NCBI GenBank assembly: GCA_000697355.1
Contig: JNEN01001014.1
Span: 124,001 to 188,000 of the forward strand
Reading direction: 5' to 3'
Origin: Syncephalastrum monosporum B8922
Taxonomy: Eukaryota; Mucoromycota; Mucoromycetes; Mucorales; Syncephalastraceae
Length of the DNA stretch: 64,000 bases
Positions 17,242-29,600 of the stretch are shown here, piece after piece. The translations under genes and the position numbers were made by a program. How positions within the stretch are numbered: the stretch's first letter is position 1; each line of letters opens with the position of its first letter. Below the pieces are notes generated by a model. That model saw only the letters and a list, made by a program, of their open reading frames with translations, was not told the origin of the DNA and ran no database searches.

Positions 17242-18904
17242 GCGTCTTTTTTTTTCCTTATCCTTTTTACATAAAAGAAACCAAATGGAGCGGCTGCTTT
17301 TCACCTGCACTCTTTTTTACGCCGACCTATGTATACGTCGATATATGATCCTACTCAGCTGATATGTGTACAATAATTCAACACCCTATCTATCAAACTT
17401 CTGCTTACACCATTGGTTTTAGCTGAAACGCTTACTGCTCACCGAGACGACTTGGTCATTTTGGCCTTGCGTTAAGCAACCTCTACAAACCTCGTGCTGT
17501 GTTTACGTGGTGCCGGGACTACGGTAATTCAATTGTCCCTGCGCAATGCAAGTGCTTGGATGTGTATAGTAGTGCGCTAGATATCATAGACTAGATATCA
17601 AACGTTGACAGATAGTGTACAAAATGGCAATCAAATATCCGGTGGGTAAAAGTAAGAATGTACCATGATTATGCATCATAGTATGCATTTACTATGGCTA
17701 TGAAAGTTTCTCTGGATGCCTTTGCAAACTACATGCGTCGAACATTTCGAGAGTTGTATCCGTTTCGCTATCGCATACACATTTTCTTCAAAACTCCAAA
17801 ATGCTTCGTTTCGTTCATTCGCATCTATGTGCCAGGATTGTCTCTAGGTCGCCCAAAAGTATGATTAGTCCGCTAAAAACTTTACGTGCCTCAGCTGCAT
17901 CTCTATCAACATCGAATCTGCCAAGTTTGTAACCCCCCCCCCCAGAAATCACACAAATTACTGTGCATTGGGTGCTGGACAGATAGTCCATGCGCCGTGC
18001 TTTGCAAAACAGTTTACTTCGCAACTCAAGTGGAGCGTCATTCCATGTTACCCAAAGAACACCAAAGCCAGGAAATCGATGGTACTTGTATCAAAACTGC
18101 GACTTAGAAGACCTTCTATACATGACTTCACTCACGACGCAGGAGCAGGTGCTCTTACCGAATGGCGCATATTCGCTACTTCGCCTCATGGGAATTACGT
18201 CCGTGCTGAATGATACTAATAGCTGAGATAATATATTTCGTCCATTCACGCACGCATGGCTGATATCTTATCGGCAAATAACTTAGAAAATATAATGAGT
18301 AATTCGCTGGATCGTCATGATATTCCCTTCTTTCGCCCGTACACAAATTACTGCAGGACAGAGCCTTCACCGAGCTGCAGCTTGACACAAACTCTGCGTA
18401 TGAGAGAGATTCTTGTATGGTTGGGCAGTGCTATCTCTGCTTATATTTTCCCAGCTCATGTTTCGCCGTTTAGACCAAGCCCTCGGTGAGAGCGCGATTT
18501 AAACTCATGAAAGCTGCCAATATCTCTGGACTATCCGGCTTGCTTGAAACCAATGCAGCCTATTTCAATTTTATTCTCAAAAGGGAGCATCATTAAAGAC
18601 TATGGTGGCACAGAAGTGGTCGCTTTCAGCAAACGAAACTCAAGGTGTCTTCTGCAGAATAACCCTGCTCTCCTATCGTGATATGCTTCACGTATTCTCT
18701 ATCAAGAAGTTACCCGGGATTTTCCCTCTTTGTGATTGTTTTCGTGTCATATCTTTGTGTGATTGAGAAAAATACCTCCTCCCGCATACGCAGAAACATT
18801 GAAGAGGCGACACAAAGGGAGCTTTATCACATGATACGTTACGGCAGCGCTTATTGAATTTTCTGGTTTGGTCGCGCTAGCACTTTCCCACTTTACTCGT
18901 TAAC
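17242..18904. other. intergenic; one short ORF only
   Basis: AT-rich DNA after RPS23. The only stretch with coding-like composition is an ATG-led 78-codon frame at 17990..18226 (plus), reading GNRWYLYQNCDLEDLLYMTS and EQVLLPNGAYSLLRLMG; it has no recognised domain and may be a relic. A run of nine C lies at about 17935-17943. Confidence 0.35.
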
Positions 18905-19490: not shown

Positions 19491-22400
19491 ATGATTCCTA
19501 ACTCGCGCGTCCCTACTACTACCACTACCACTACTACCACCATTACAACTAATACTAATACTACTCTCGCTGCTACTCCCGATATTTCTCGTCTTTCTTC
19601 CTCTTATACAGCGGATTACCGCGCCCCTTTTCCCCACACTTCATTGCCCAGCCAGGTTCAGTCCAAGTCCAGGTCCAGATCCGGCAGTCAACACCATCCA
19701 CCCCAGTGGACCTCGCCCATTCCTCAGTCATCTCCCAGCGCCATGTCTAAGATACCCTTACAGCAGCCTGGTTTGCCTCACGTTCCGCAAGATCAAAAGA
19801 TACGCCGCAAGCCATTAACACCTTCCAGTCATAACCAGAACCATAACCAAAGCCATAACTATAACTATAATCACAACCATAACCATAACCATAATCATAA
19901 TCATAATTATGATATCGGCTCTAATGAGCGGTATGCATCACGCCATATTCTCGAGATGCCCACTTATATTGACACTCCACCCGCTGCTTCTCCGATGGAT
20001 GCGGCTACCATTAATGACGCACAACATGCAAAGGTAACAGAGTCATATCTCCATTTTCCGCGCAACGACCATTCTCACATTGTATATCTACCATGTATAG
20101 CCTCAGAAGGGTGCTCTCTTTGGTCGCTTTCTACGGAAACTGAGCAAGGTAAACTGTGGTCGCTTCCACATACACATATCTCATGGGTTCTGTTTGCTAG
20201 GCCGCTGAGGATGATATACTTGACGATGCACCACGCGTGAGACCCATCTCCATGGAAGCACACGTTGCGAGTCGCACCGTAAAGAACCCTCACAACATTC
20301 CTCTTGCGCCACCGCCTCCTCCTGCTTCGCAGAATAAGCGTCGCCCGGTCTCGGCCACACCTCCAGACAATCCAAAGATACCGTTCGATACCTTTGACGA
20401 TGATGATGACGCTTATTATAAACGTACAAGTGGCCTCTACCGTGACAAGGCCCTGCCAGACATCAGCGAGGCTCGATCACGACACGTTTCTCCTCCACCG
20501 CCAGCCATCCACGCCAACTCTCCCAGACCCATCTCCAGCTCTAAGTCAAACACTGTCTGTACTACATTTAATAACAACTATCAATGCAGCAGCAATCCTA
20601 CCTCACCCTCCATCCCGCCCACGCCTCTCCCACAAACTACGATGGCTCCCGTCGAGCAGAAGGACGTGACCCAAATCGTGGCCAGTAATCTACAGCGGCG
20701 TGCTCAAACCGTACGCGTCGTCCACCACCATCCTCCGGTGTCCAGCCGACCTCCTGATCTCGCCTTGCAAGCCCGATCTATTGAGCAAGACGACAGTGGT
20801 ATCGGTAGCCCTATTGACCCCATGATGTCCATACAAGAAGAGACCTCCGACGAGGACGATGATGACGAGGACGATCTTTTTGTCGACGCGACAGAGTCCC
20901 AAGACGAAGTCGAGCGAGATCGCCACGAGTCCAGACTATCCAAGCGTCTTAGCGGTGGTCATTTCGGTAGTGCAGGGGGTTTGATCCTCGCTACAACTTC
21001 CAAGCGGCACAGCAAACCGCCACCTGAGGACATAGCGAAGGCAATGCTGAACTGGAAGCGCCAGAGCGGGAGCAGCAAACGGATCAGTGGCGTCTCTGCT
21101 GTGCTCCGCTGGAACGAGGATAACAGCAAAGAGGACGACGAGGACAAGGAAGAAGAGCTCTCGCAGCCGGATAAAGCTGCTCTCCGCGAACAAGCGGCCG
21201 AGACGCTTATGGGTGGGCGCCTGAATAACACCACCAAGTCTGCCGAGCCTGATCCCACTTTTGTCAAGACATTGGACGAAGCTTGGCGGCCCACGAGTCC
21301 GGATTTAACCCACGTACGAGACCCGCGCATCATTGATCCGTCTATCCAAGAACAGGCCCAAGAAGCGGCAGATAAACTTTGGAAAGAAGATAGCGCGTTT
21401 GTGGAGCGCGAACGGATTGCAGAATGGCTTGGCCAAGGGTAGGACCAAGAACGCGACGCACGAGAGACCATTCACTGAAGCCATCTTTAGGAAGCCCCTC
21501 CATCGGGAAGCTCTGGTTCTCTACATGAAGAACTTTGACTTTACCAACATGCGCCTCGATAGTGCATTCCGGAAGCTGTGCAGCAAGTTGTACTTCAAAG
21601 CCGAAGCCCAGCAGATTGACCGTATCCTGGAAGTATTTGCCCATCGCTTCTGGACATGCAATCGTCATACCATACTGAAAAGCCCTGGTACGTATACTCT
21701 TCTACTTGCATACTCTGCTCACAAGGTCTACAGACGTCGTATATGCTGTCGTGTATTCCGTATTGCTTTTGAACACTGATCTGCACGTCGCGCAAGGCAA
21801 TTACAACCGTATGACACGACAAGAGTTTATTCGAAATACCATGGCTGCCGTGCATGATCAGACAGGACCCACCGTGAATCGAGGCTGGGAGGCCGATGTT
21901 GAGACGTATCTGAAGGAACTCTACACGTCTGTTAAGCAGTATCAAATCCTGCAGCCTATGTCCACACAGCAGCTGGCAAGCCAGCAGGCTCAGGATAGCA
22001 TCCCCGATCGCACAAGCACCCTTCTAAATGCACGACGTGTGGTTGGCTTGAAGCGCAGTGTAGGATCCATCATCCGCCGGTCAGGACGCGAGAGTACATT
22101 CTTAGTAGATGAAGTTTTGGTGAGTTCGTTTGACACACCAGAAGAGGTCTCTTTTAACGCGACTTGCTTTAGCCTCGCACCAGTATCAGCTCCAGTACAC
22201 ATCCAACCTCGCCCCGCTCACCCCGACGCGATTCATTTTCATCGATTGGATCGTCGACCTCGTTCGGACGCGTCCGTGCGTCGTCGTTCTCACCGGGCCA
22301 ACCCATGATGAACTTCATAGACGCACACCACCCATCGCTGTTCACCAGTCGCCCACCCTATGTCAAGGAAGGTATCGTGATGCGGAAACACCTACTAGAG

Positions 22401-23279
22401 ACGGCGAACCAGAAGGCCAAACACCGTGACTGGAAGGAATGCTTGCTTGTCGTAGACGAAGGGGAGCTAAAGATGTACGCCTTAACTGGGTCTGACAGCG
22501 AGCGGCGCAGCATGCTCCGGACCAGCAGCCAAAACAGTTTTGCCAACTTGGCCGAGTCCTTGAGTAGCAAGTCGGAGTCCCTGCAAGGCAACGGCAAGTG
22601 GGCAGCCTATTCGCATTTAATAGGTACCATCAAACTGAATCATACCCTGTCCAACATCCTGCCTCCCCCGGGCTACAACCGACAGCGGCCGCACGTCTTT
22701 GCACTCCAGCAGCCGGATGGGGGTGTCTTCTTGTTTCAAGCAGCGTCCCACGACCAGACCTGGGAGTGGATGACCACTTGCAATTACTGGGCGGCTCGTG
22801 AGAGCAAGGAGCCACTTCCAGGTGGCGTGAGCAACATGGAATACGGTTGGGGTGCTTTAAACCACAGAGGTGACCCAGATACAATCACCATTTTTGACTG
22901 GCGACCGCCTGCTCCACCGCTTGTGCCAAGTACCCTCAGTGAGAAAGATCAGTTTCTGGCACTACAAAAGCATCTACAAGCGCTAGATAAGGAGATCGAT
23001 GCGCACCGGGAACTGAAGCCAGAACTGATGGCTAAATTCCCAAACAAGTCGCAGAACTACGCCAAGGTGATGGCGAACTGGGAGTCTAAATCAAAATACC
23101 TCCTGCACGACATTATTAAATACCAAAACTACTGTGGCGCCCTCGAGAAGAGCTTGGAGGAACAGCGTCAGCACCAGCGAGAGGCTGCAGAGACGACACC
23201 GGAGATCCGCCTGGACTACAGCGAGACAAACGTGGATCTCATCAAGGAGATTGGCGACGAGCTCCAGCTCGCTTTCTAA
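19491..23279 (+). CDS. Sec7-PH ARF guanine-nucleotide exchange factor (Syt1-like)
   Basis: Six exons, 19491..20033, 20101..20148, 20201..21438, 21491..21687, 21734..22119, 22173..23279, 1172 residues. The N-terminal half is disordered: poly-Thr, an Asn-His repeat, acidic patches. Exon 2 adds PQKGALFGRFLRKLSK, a short conserved peptide. The Sec7 domain starts near AEWLGQGKPLHREALVLYMK and continues FDFTNMRLDSAFRKLC, KAEAQQIDRILEVFAHRF (Glu finger in AEAQ) and VVYSVLLLNTDLHVAQ. A PH domain follows (VKEGIVMRKHLLE, DWKECLLVVDEGELKMY), then a C-terminal coiled coil. Sec7 domains load GTP on ARF GTPases; the Sec7-PH layout is that of yeast Syt1, acting at Golgi/endosome membranes. Confidence 0.88.
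19862..19908. repeat. Asn-His coding microsatellite
   Basis: Repeated AACCAT/AATCAT units encode an (Asn-His)n run in the disordered N-terminus of the Sec7 protein. Confidence 0.8.
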
Positions 23280-23446
23280 AAAATAATCATACTCTTACCC
23301 CCCCCCTTACATAGATATCTACCTTTAGTTACATACTTTTTTTTGTGTCGTTCACGCTGTTACATATAAATGTTTTAATGCACTTTTATAAAGAAAAAAG
23401 CAATGTATTGGAAAATGTTGTAATGTTATGTACACGCGTCCAGCGT

Positions 23447-26400
23447 TCAGATGGATTGCAGCTGAGAGCCGCAGTCAAGGCACCGCGAGAGCTGATACAG
23501 GATTTTGTCCGTGAGTGAGAGCTGGTCACCCTCGGTTCGACGCCACGCGCCAGGTGCCAGACATTTCGCGTGGCAGGTCAAGCATTGGCGCGTATCTGGT
23601 ACGACCATGGCTCGATTGGTCATACTACAGACGCCTGTTCCAGTATTAGTATATGGAACCAGCTAAGAAAATCAAGTGAGCTATATTCCATACCGTATAT
23701 GTGTCCATTGCTGCAGCTGTAAGTCTTGTATCTAAATTTCAAGAGTAATAACGTGGTTAAGGATGACCAAGTTACAAGTTGTTAGTCAAACGAAACCCCC
23801 CCCCCCAAAAAAAAGGATATATTCTTGACAGATCGGGCATTTTTCAATGTTGAGTTTCTGGGAAGTGTCGACCTCTCGACCGGCGAGACGTTCTTCAGCG
23901 ATGTGAAGCAGTTTCTGTGCATTTTCACTCAGCGATGGGTTTGTGGATGTCGATAAAATAAGCTCGCAGGCACTCTTCAACGTCTGGTCGAGCGACGGGA
24001 TGTTCAGGGGAGACGTGGCGAGCTTATTGCAGAGCACTAGCATGGTTGTCAGATCGTCATCTAAGGCATCACAGTCAGTAGAGGAGCAATTATCCTACAG
24101 GTAGCTCACCATCCAGCGCCGTTATTTCTTCACTCGAGTTTAGAACATAAGAGAGTACGGTAGACGGGCTATGGGCTTGAAGATAGTCACTTGCAGAGGA
24201 CTTGAGTTCTTCCAGGTACTTTTGGGCCTCTTCTGGCAGTTCATAGTACTACTTACGAACTGAGATATTTGTCTCTCTCTTTCTCACGCATACCACTCAT
24301 TGGACTTACCTCAAGTTCAATTTTGACACGTATCGCTACACGAGCCGCATTGGCTGGGATGTCACTGAGCGCCATCCGGGTCAGAGACGTGCTTTGGGAC
24401 GGCCTAGACAAAAGGTCAGCTTATCAGCTTATATCCTGCTTTGTCCCTGGGTTAACTTACTCGGTTCGCTCGATAAGCATAAGATTATCCAAGACACGCA
24501 GCCACTTCAAGATGCCTTCAGTTTCAGTGACGTCGGCTAAGTATTCCAGCGGTTCATGGATGACGCTCCGAATCGGATAAGTGAACACTACGAAGAGGAA
24601 GCGGTATTAGCACACCAACACTTGAGCTCTTTTGAAACGCGGATCATTACGGAAGTCAGGATCCCGAATAGACGCTTCGAGTAATTGACAGAGTTGGTCG
24701 ATAGTGGAAGGATCTTGGCGTGGCGGATGAAGAATGAAAGACAGCCAAGAAACTTCCTTTGCATCACCGCCATAATAGCTGACTGCTCTGGGCTTCAACC
24801 TGTATAAGCGTCAGTGAACTTCTCAGTTATATAGCGTTTTTGAGCACTTGCGTGTAGTTGAGGGCTGTATAGAGACCATAGCGCGGTGCATCTGCGCCCC
24901 AGAGTTCGACCGTTCCGTCGGGCTTGTTCCAAAGCTCACACTCGTCTTGATTTTCTTGCAGGCTCATCCATTTGTTGACAAAGGTATACTTGATTTTGCG
25001 ATTGGTTTGCTCTGTGAGTGTCTGGTTCAGCTCGACGCCTTTGCCAGTTACGGTAAACACGAGAACTTCGCCTTCATACGTGAACGCTCGCAAACACTGT
25101 CCGTTCTCCGTCCAATATGTCGCTGTGAAAAAAGGTTTAGACACGGTATGTGAAGTATCTCGGACTTTACCTGAAAATCCCATGGCACTGTAGTTCGACT
25201 TCGTCTTCTCCCAAGTGGACAGGACCTCGTTACCATTAATTGTAACATCCGATATGTGGAGATGGAGGTTACGTTGTACAGCCACGCGTAAATGATTTTC
25301 GGCCTGTTATGCTGTTAGTACACCGCCGTCATGCATTGATGCTATTTTACCATCGTATAGATAGAGATGCCACTGGAGATCATATGGCTGTCCTGGAACC
25401 ACCTCTCGAGAACGACGACTTCGGCAGATGAGACTGCGGTCGTTCTTTCCAAACTGTTTTCATCCAGTGATACAGTGACCCGCAAGAGACACATTGACCC
25501 GTCTGCACAGGCCGAAATCATGTAAGCTCTGACTAAAAAAGAGAATGAGTCAATATTTTTGAGACTTTAGCCGCGACTCACATGTTTCGCCACATCTGTG
25601 CCAAGTGGACCACTCAATAAGATTGACAAAGGAGGTGTGTGCTTGGATTGAGGCAAGATATTTAATACCAGCCGAATGCGAGTATCTATGGTATGATCAG
25701 ACGAGCGGGCCGGTGCATAGGATAACCTACCCCCAGAGAGTGATCTCGCCTGATTTATGTGAGAGACCTAGTACGGCCGGCATTTCGACCAAGGCATCAG
25801 CGATTATGGCGGGCGACCATTGTGCATCTATGTCTTGAGTAAGTTACATGGATTTGTATATGTACGGGTACATACAGAGCGTATGGAAGCGGTCGATATG
25901 TTGCAGATTCCGGAAGCCTAGTTCTCCTTCCAAGGCATGCTCTTTGATACGTTCCGACATATCAAGGATCTTGCAAAGACATAATTCAGTAAAGTCAATC
26001 ATCTATTTCTATCACTTACCAGATCCCAGCTACCGTTCTGCTCGGATGAAGAAGCGTCGTACAAGCGCACGCGGTGTTTTGTGGTAACCAACGTTAAAAT
26101 GCACCTGAAAAGGAGACACGTTAATGGATACCGGATCCCAGAGGAAGCAGGATAAGGTCGACGTACCCAAATACACGGGAGAGGCCTGTAGGGGACCATG
26201 CGGCGCAGCGGTACTTTTCAGGCATGATGTAGGACGTCTGGACAGGTTTTTCGATCACTAGAGGAGTTAAACAGTCAGGTACCCGCCTTTCGTCTTTGTC
26301 AAGAAAAAATAAGCGGCATACCTGCTTTCTCGCCAAAGACGGGAACGTCTTCAGGATCAGGAGCCTGAATACCAAAGTGCTGATATGTCTCAATGTCATA

Positions 26401-26606
26401 AGTCAGTGACACCAGGGTCGGGATCTGTTCAATCGTATAAGCCAACAGAACAGAACACTATATATTTCAAGCAATTATGGTCGTCTGCGTACAATGATGT
26501 GAATAGTTTCGTCCTTGCACACAACGAGCTGGCCATCCTCGTTCCACTTAACCCCTCCAACCGAGAAATGTCTTGAGGGTAGCTGGATTCCTGGTCGTGC
26601 CTCCAT
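23447..26606 (-). CDS. TFIIIC 90-kDa-type subunit (GTF3C4/Sfc9-like)
   Basis: About 15 exons, roughly 760 residues. The N-terminal half is a WD/beta-propeller typical of the TFIIIC delta subunit: VKWNEDGQLVVCKDETIHII, CAAWSPTGLSRVFGC, LYIDAQWSPAIIADALV, SGEITLWGYSHSAGIKYLAS. The C-terminus is the TFIIIC zinc finger: EKCPICQEFLKFRYKTYSCS, NGHIYGVCSMTNR, RQCLTCHAKC, RCLDCGSQL. TFIIIC binds A and B boxes of tRNA genes and recruits TFIIIB for RNA polymerase III. The two halves of the first zinc finger are split by an AT-AC intron (23745..23820), and another intron (24800..24851) has a GC donor. The start is the MEARPGIQLPS methionine; the frame stays open further upstream without another ATG. Confidence 0.83.
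23745..23820 (-). other. U12-type AT-AC intron
   Basis: On the minus strand the exon ends TGTCAAGAAT and the intron opens ATATCCTTTTTTTT, an exact match to the U12 donor ATATCCTTT. Near the end is TCCTTAAC (U12 branch consensus TTCCTTRAC), with the likely branch A at 23757, 12 nt before the closing AC. The next exon starts TCTTGAAATT. Splicing joins CPICQE to FLKFRYKTYSCSNGHIY in frame and completes the TFIIIC zinc finger. No GT-AG pair does this. Length 76 nt; the interior has a T8-G10 homopolymer. Confidence 0.88.
24800..24851 (-). other. GC-AG intron in the TFIIIC gene
   Basis: The donor is AACTACAC|GCAAGTG and the acceptor TATACAG|GTTGAAG. It is phase 2 and is the only join that links ALNYT to LKPRAVSYYGGDAKEV. 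Length 52 nt. GCAAGT is the consensus for GC donors. Confidence 0.75.

Positions 26607-26821: not shown

Positions 26822-29600
<2,779 letters not shown>

Follow-up and report, generated by a model that had tools for sequence, protein, structure and literature searches.

A probable U12-type AT-AC intron in a TFIIIC90-like gene of a Mucorales-like fungus

The stretch of DNA analysed here (the window, 64,000 nucleotides) carries on its minus strand a TFIIIC90/GTF3C4-like gene, and positions 23820-23745 (-) of this gene very probably form a U12-type AT-AC intron. The AT-AC reading is supported, at the level of sequence, by the splice-site and branch motifs, by the reading frame, by the identity of the gene, and by the genome's own U11 and U6atac genes. 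An intron of this type in a fungal TFIIIC gene had been proposed in a first-pass annotation, which holds for the motifs, the frame, and the gene and fails in its exclusion of GT-AG solutions. With it, the short list for Mucorales-like fungi gains a well-formed AT-AC intron that lies in a conserved gene and is accompanied by U11 and U6atac in the same genome; the intron is a fresh example of a phenomenon already known, not a new phenomenon. A gene predictor restricted to GT-AG borders would probably miscall the junction, with a changed TFIIIC90 zinc ribbon as the result.

The host gene spans 23447..26606 (-) and, in the model used, comprises 16 exons coding for 768 amino acids (2307 nt with the stop codon). 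Its product matches the Pfam families TFIIIC_delta (the propeller; 63.1 bits, cut-off 27) and zf-TFIIIC (35.1 bits, cut-off 23) and, judging from these two matches, is a TFIIIC90/GTF3C4-type subunit of TFIIIC. The exons were rebuilt, and all stop-free GT-AG pairs that keep the frame were listed at each of the 15 junctions. At junction 1/2 the second-ranked pair was chosen (score 5.29, not 6.95), because the top pair inserts 11 residues that are missing in the homologues. The idea of a broken gene was dropped, with frame-keeping GT-AG pairs present at junctions 9/10 and 10/11 (24847-24793 and 24650-24588, respectively); the second of these pairs is consistent with the Gilbertella sequence. The closest proteins are those of Gilbertella, Helicostylum, and Thamnidium, at 28-32% identity. 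These three passed among 8000 scored candidates, in a search run with a 781-aa version of the protein whose two wrong joins (9/10 and 10/11) were fixed in the 768-aa model. Since the nearest proteins come from these genera, which we take to be Mucorales, the host is called Mucorales-like. A profile search (profile A1) returned only two proteins, both previously known, and a search with the zinc finger alone gave six candidates, none of them at E up to 1. In the TFIIIC proteins of Helicostylum and Thamnidium (P0002 and P0003), this part of the finger is kept and the ends are irregular thereafter; these ends are perhaps miscalled 3′ exons.

Exon 14 (23821..24060 (-)) ends in CPICQE(T), and exon 15 (23694..23744 (-)) reads FLKFRYKTYSCSNGHIY. 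Read-through of the region, considered and rejected, leads to a stop after YILFFGGGGFV, so that the zinc finger can be reached only if an intron is removed. The AT-AC intron, which is the best reading (23745..23820 (-)), is 76 nt long and in phase 1. It begins with ATATCCTTT (23812..23820 (-)), which agrees with the U12 consensus at 9/9 positions and contains ATATCCTT, the mark of the AT-AC subtype at the 5′ splice site. Near the 3′ end, where a TTCCTTRAC branch is looked for, lies ATCCTTAAC (23756..23764 (-)), which agrees at 8/9 positions and differs from TTCCTTAAC by its first base alone. A distance of 12 nt separates the branch A, at 23757, from the final base of the intron, 23745, and the terminal AC (23745..23746 (-)) provides the 3′ splice site. 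Donor, branch, and spacing are thus as the first-pass annotation had described them. Its statement that splicing rebuilds the TFIIIC zinc finger also holds on the sequence: joining GAAT to TCTTGA keeps the frame, gives CPICQEFLKFRYKTYSCSNGH without a stop, and links CPICQE to FLKFRYKTYSCSNGH, the product being CPICQEFLKFRYKTYSCSNGHIYGVCSMT. From the donor at 23820, four frame-keeping AG or AC acceptors were listed, one of which creates a stop; the AC at 23745 is the sole acceptor among them placed 9-15 nt past the branch A. Phase 1 is also the phase favoured by minor introns, according to the available part of PMC10639083.

Comparison of the AT-AC product with PDB sequences (phmmer) retrieved human GTF3C4 (8cli_B; CKEILPF...CSNGHI, 18.6 bits, E 0.016), a match that is weak but on the right protein; the next ones, to two cytochrome c family chains, are similarly weak. 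The finger loop counts 12 residues in the AT-AC product, vs. 13 in the human protein and 14 in those of Gilbertella and Helicostylum. In the mechanism that we propose, CCTTT of the 5′ splice site would be base-paired with U11 and TCCTTAAC presumably with U12, and excision of 23820-23745 would rebuild the zinc ribbon at the C-terminus, CPICQEFLKFRYKTYSCSNGH. If the intron were retained, the protein would be expected to end after YILFFGGGGFV, devoid of the zinc ribbon.

The first-pass annotation had also claimed that no GT-AG pair restores the finger, and this is not the case. One stop-free GT-AG pair, the only one at this junction, keeps the frame and the finger cysteines on the sequence as it stands, though poorly: 23791-23725 (23725..23791 (-); score -1.34), which codes CPICQEYILFFGGGGFTYSCSN. 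An ordinary U2-type intron at this place, with CPICQEYILFFGGGGFTYSCSNGH as its product, is nevertheless highly improbable. The zf-TFIIIC profile gives this product 38.0 bits, close behind the 39.9 bits of the AT-AC product, but the score of the pair is the lowest among the 15 junctions, the best pairs at the other 14 ranging from 0.83 to 9.95. The weights behind these scores, for donors as well as acceptors, were trained on 190,350 bases of this genome; the gene itself is among them, which makes the comparison partly circular. Both sites are weak (donor GTTTGAC, acceptor GATACAAG), and the acceptor bypasses a better AG located 7 nt upstream (3.29 vs. 0.31). GTT donors are found in 2 of 72 introns with trained weights and in 1 of 35 with flat weights, the latter count being free of the trained splice-site weights and made with a coding model from the same rounds. 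No GT-AG pair at this junction combines a genome-typical donor and a genome-typical acceptor with a preserved frame. Finally, the product of 23791-23725 has four glycines within a 15-residue loop, and its match to GTF3C4 is lost at E up to 10. Two other pairs were tried and rejected: AT-AG from 23822 to the TTTAG at 23732, which reduces the loop to QEYKTYS (zf-TFIIIC 35.2 bits), and GT-AC from 23796 to 23745 (34.7 bits).

Long homopolymers are easily miscounted, and a T8G11 run (23796..23814 (-)), which begins right after base six of the AT-AC intron, is a possible site of such an error. If it were miscounted, the true gene could read YILFF and some glycines, ATATCCTTT being coding, and an ordinary GT-AG intron, able to keep the frame at another run length, would extend from GTTTCG (23796) to TTTAG (23732). 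The acceptor at 23732 is a good one (3.29), and four hypothetical YILFF peptides with 0, 1, 2, or 4 glycines obtain 39.0-45.6 bits with zf-TFIIIC. Three of them (40.0, 45.6, and 41.4) beat the AT-AC product (39.9), one by 0.1 bit, and the fourth stays at 39.0. Moreover, the finger loops of the homologues, with 13 and 14 residues, are slightly longer than that of the AT-AC product. Nothing else speaks as strongly against the AT-AC reading as these hypothetical peptide scores and longer homologue loops. However, a miscount requires an error in the sequence, the GTTTCG donor scores just 0.1 and belongs to the GTT donors seen in a single one of 35 introns with flat weights, and the U12 donor, the branch, and their spacing would all be coincidence. 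On balance, we regard this explanation as unlikely. The window contains three stretches of 9-11 C, read as G on the opposite strand, at 17933-17943, 23298-23306, and 23796-23806; one is inside the AT-AC intron and one between two genes, and their lengths may be unreliable.

The motif pair alone is no proof of an intron, and it is not rare. In the 27.5-Mb genome, this intron and a second site match the pattern ATATCCTTN{20,50}TCCTTRAC, and the reversed control also has two matches; for the GTATCC version of the pattern the counts are 1 vs. 1, and for a stricter pattern 0 vs. 2. The unlikely part is to find the motif pair in frame, exactly where the gene requires an intron. The AT-AC reading is carried by position, by frame, and by the want of a good GT-AG alternative. 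A looser search over 380,700 strand-bases, with one mismatch allowed in the donor and one in the branch, gave three sites including this intron, the other two sitting in loci that had themselves been picked by motif searches. The donor ATATCCTTT by itself is present 430 times in the genome vs. 197 times for its reversal; this excess was not used, since codons may be richer in AAAGGATAT. Taken as they are, the pattern counts suggest that minor introns with both the strict consensus and this spacing are few in the genome.

The first-pass annotation had named U11, U12, U4atac, and U6atac as the RNAs to be sought in the genome, and two of the four were found with Rfam models, at one place each: U11 (77 bits, cut-off 39), whose 5′ end reads AAAAAGGGCGCG, and U6atac (54.2 bits, cut-off 33), whose box reads GAAAGGAGAGA. 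With the AT-AC donor, these two stretches of U11 and U6atac, which pair with the 5′ splice site, form duplexes of -6.1 and -7.3 kcal/mol; the energies are -1.1 and -1.9 kcal/mol with GTTTGA as the donor, and -3.5 and -4.4 kcal/mol with GTTTCG. AT-AC ends by themselves do not define U12-type introns, as stated in the accessible part of PMC3584512, and the same AT-AC intron could in principle be removed by the major spliceosome, as a U2-type AT-AC intron. With a donor and a branch of the U12 class, and with U11 and U6atac present, this appears extremely improbable. U12 and U4atac had no Rfam match in the genome, and 14 control genomes were equally silent, also for U11 and U6atac. Similarly, CCDC84/CENATAC (PF14968), presumably a minor-spliceosome factor, had no candidates in the genome, the 14 control genomes being silent too. 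With controls of this kind, these misses are no proof of absence. Rfam runs on U12-pattern loci from three hunts (19/24, 6/6, and 20/22 loci) gave no U12, and Rfam had no match in the window. A script looking for a branch-pairing stretch and then an Sm-like site yielded two weak U12 candidates (L039 and L043). In L039, GTAAGGAA is found on the minus strand from about 1484 and AATTTTTG about 44 bases further on, with no Rfam support; their order fits a branch-pairing stretch and an Sm-like site, and L039 is a weak U12 candidate at best. Ahead of the U6atac gene (L009:1501-1629, within L009:1466-1643), at a distance of 30-35 nt, stands a TATATT, and the Rfam match is followed after 6 nt by a T9 run. 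The TATA-like box and the T9 run are as a Pol III transcript would have. B box matches near U6atac are not above chance (16 vs. 19.8 expected).

The survival of a minor intron had been presented as notable, which was overstated. In the parts of the literature available to us, minor introns or minor snRNAs are documented in Mucoromycota while Dikarya lack them, and the survival of one is therefore expected. Minor introns or minor snRNAs are known in Rhizopus, Phycomyces, Lichtheimia, and Rhizophagus, as far as the sections available extend (PMC10639083, PMC2846911, PMC4133162). In the same partial texts, Rhizopus oryzae has about 4 minor introns and Phycomyces about 20, the numbers among non-Dikarya going up to 205 in Rhizophagus and 249 in Basidiobolus (PMC10639083, PMC2846911). 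For AT-AC U12 introns, the tabulated number is 1 for R. oryzae, and for Phycomyces it is 8 or 9 according to the method used (excerpt of PMC2846911). The small number of strict-consensus minor introns suggested here would fit the counts of about 4 and about 20. The AT-AC U12 introns of R. oryzae and Phycomyces blakesleeanus belong to the same class and to related fungi, but, in that excerpt, they were drawn from ESTs (PMC2846911), whereas the TFIIIC90 intron is read from genomic sequence alone. Rhizophagus irregularis is likewise a non-Dikarya fungus with minor introns, but the available text gives it 205 predicted ones (PMC10639083), while the strict patterns suggest few here.

The genome of Lichtheimia corymbifera is the nearest parallel for the RNAs, within what could be seen of PMC4133162. 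There, 4/5 AT-AC-splicing RNAs were found and U4atac was missing, a U4atac copy being reported in other basal fungi. As in the present genome, a member of the Mucorales has U11 and U6atac, with U4atac undetected; in contrast, U12 was found in L. corymbifera and has no match here. In basal fungi, stem III of U12 is atrophied, according to the same partial source (PMC4133162), and by analogy this may explain the missing Rfam match.

The first-pass annotation had further placed expression of the tRNA-gene machinery under minor splicing, which was likewise overstated; if splicing of the intron did limit TFIIIC, minor splicing would be linked to RNA polymerase III output. In yeast, U6-like genes depend on TFIIIC. 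One may imagine a loop in which U6atac splices the mRNA of a TFIIIC subunit while TFIIIC may be needed for U6atac and for tRNA genes. Retention would then give a TFIIIC90 without its ribbon, and Pol III output would be tuned to minor-splicing capacity. We consider such a loop very unlikely, and the B box count near U6atac speaks against it. In the literature covered, a review on Pol III transcripts was the one paper to mention the minor spliceosome, TFIIIC, and U12 together.

The TFIIIC gene has close neighbours on both sides. Upstream and on the same strand (26822-27064 (-) and upstream), a gene carries Anticodon_2 at its end (57.7 bits) and reaches 36.7 bits on 80 aa with gltX_bact, below the whole-protein cut-off. 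This end corresponds to the anticodon-binding domain of a bacterial-type glutamate-tRNA ligase and is separated from the start codon of the TFIIIC gene by about 215 bases. On the other side, a convergent gene (22173-23279 (+)) stops 168 bases from the TFIIIC stop codon and has a PH_9 domain in its last exon (107 bits).
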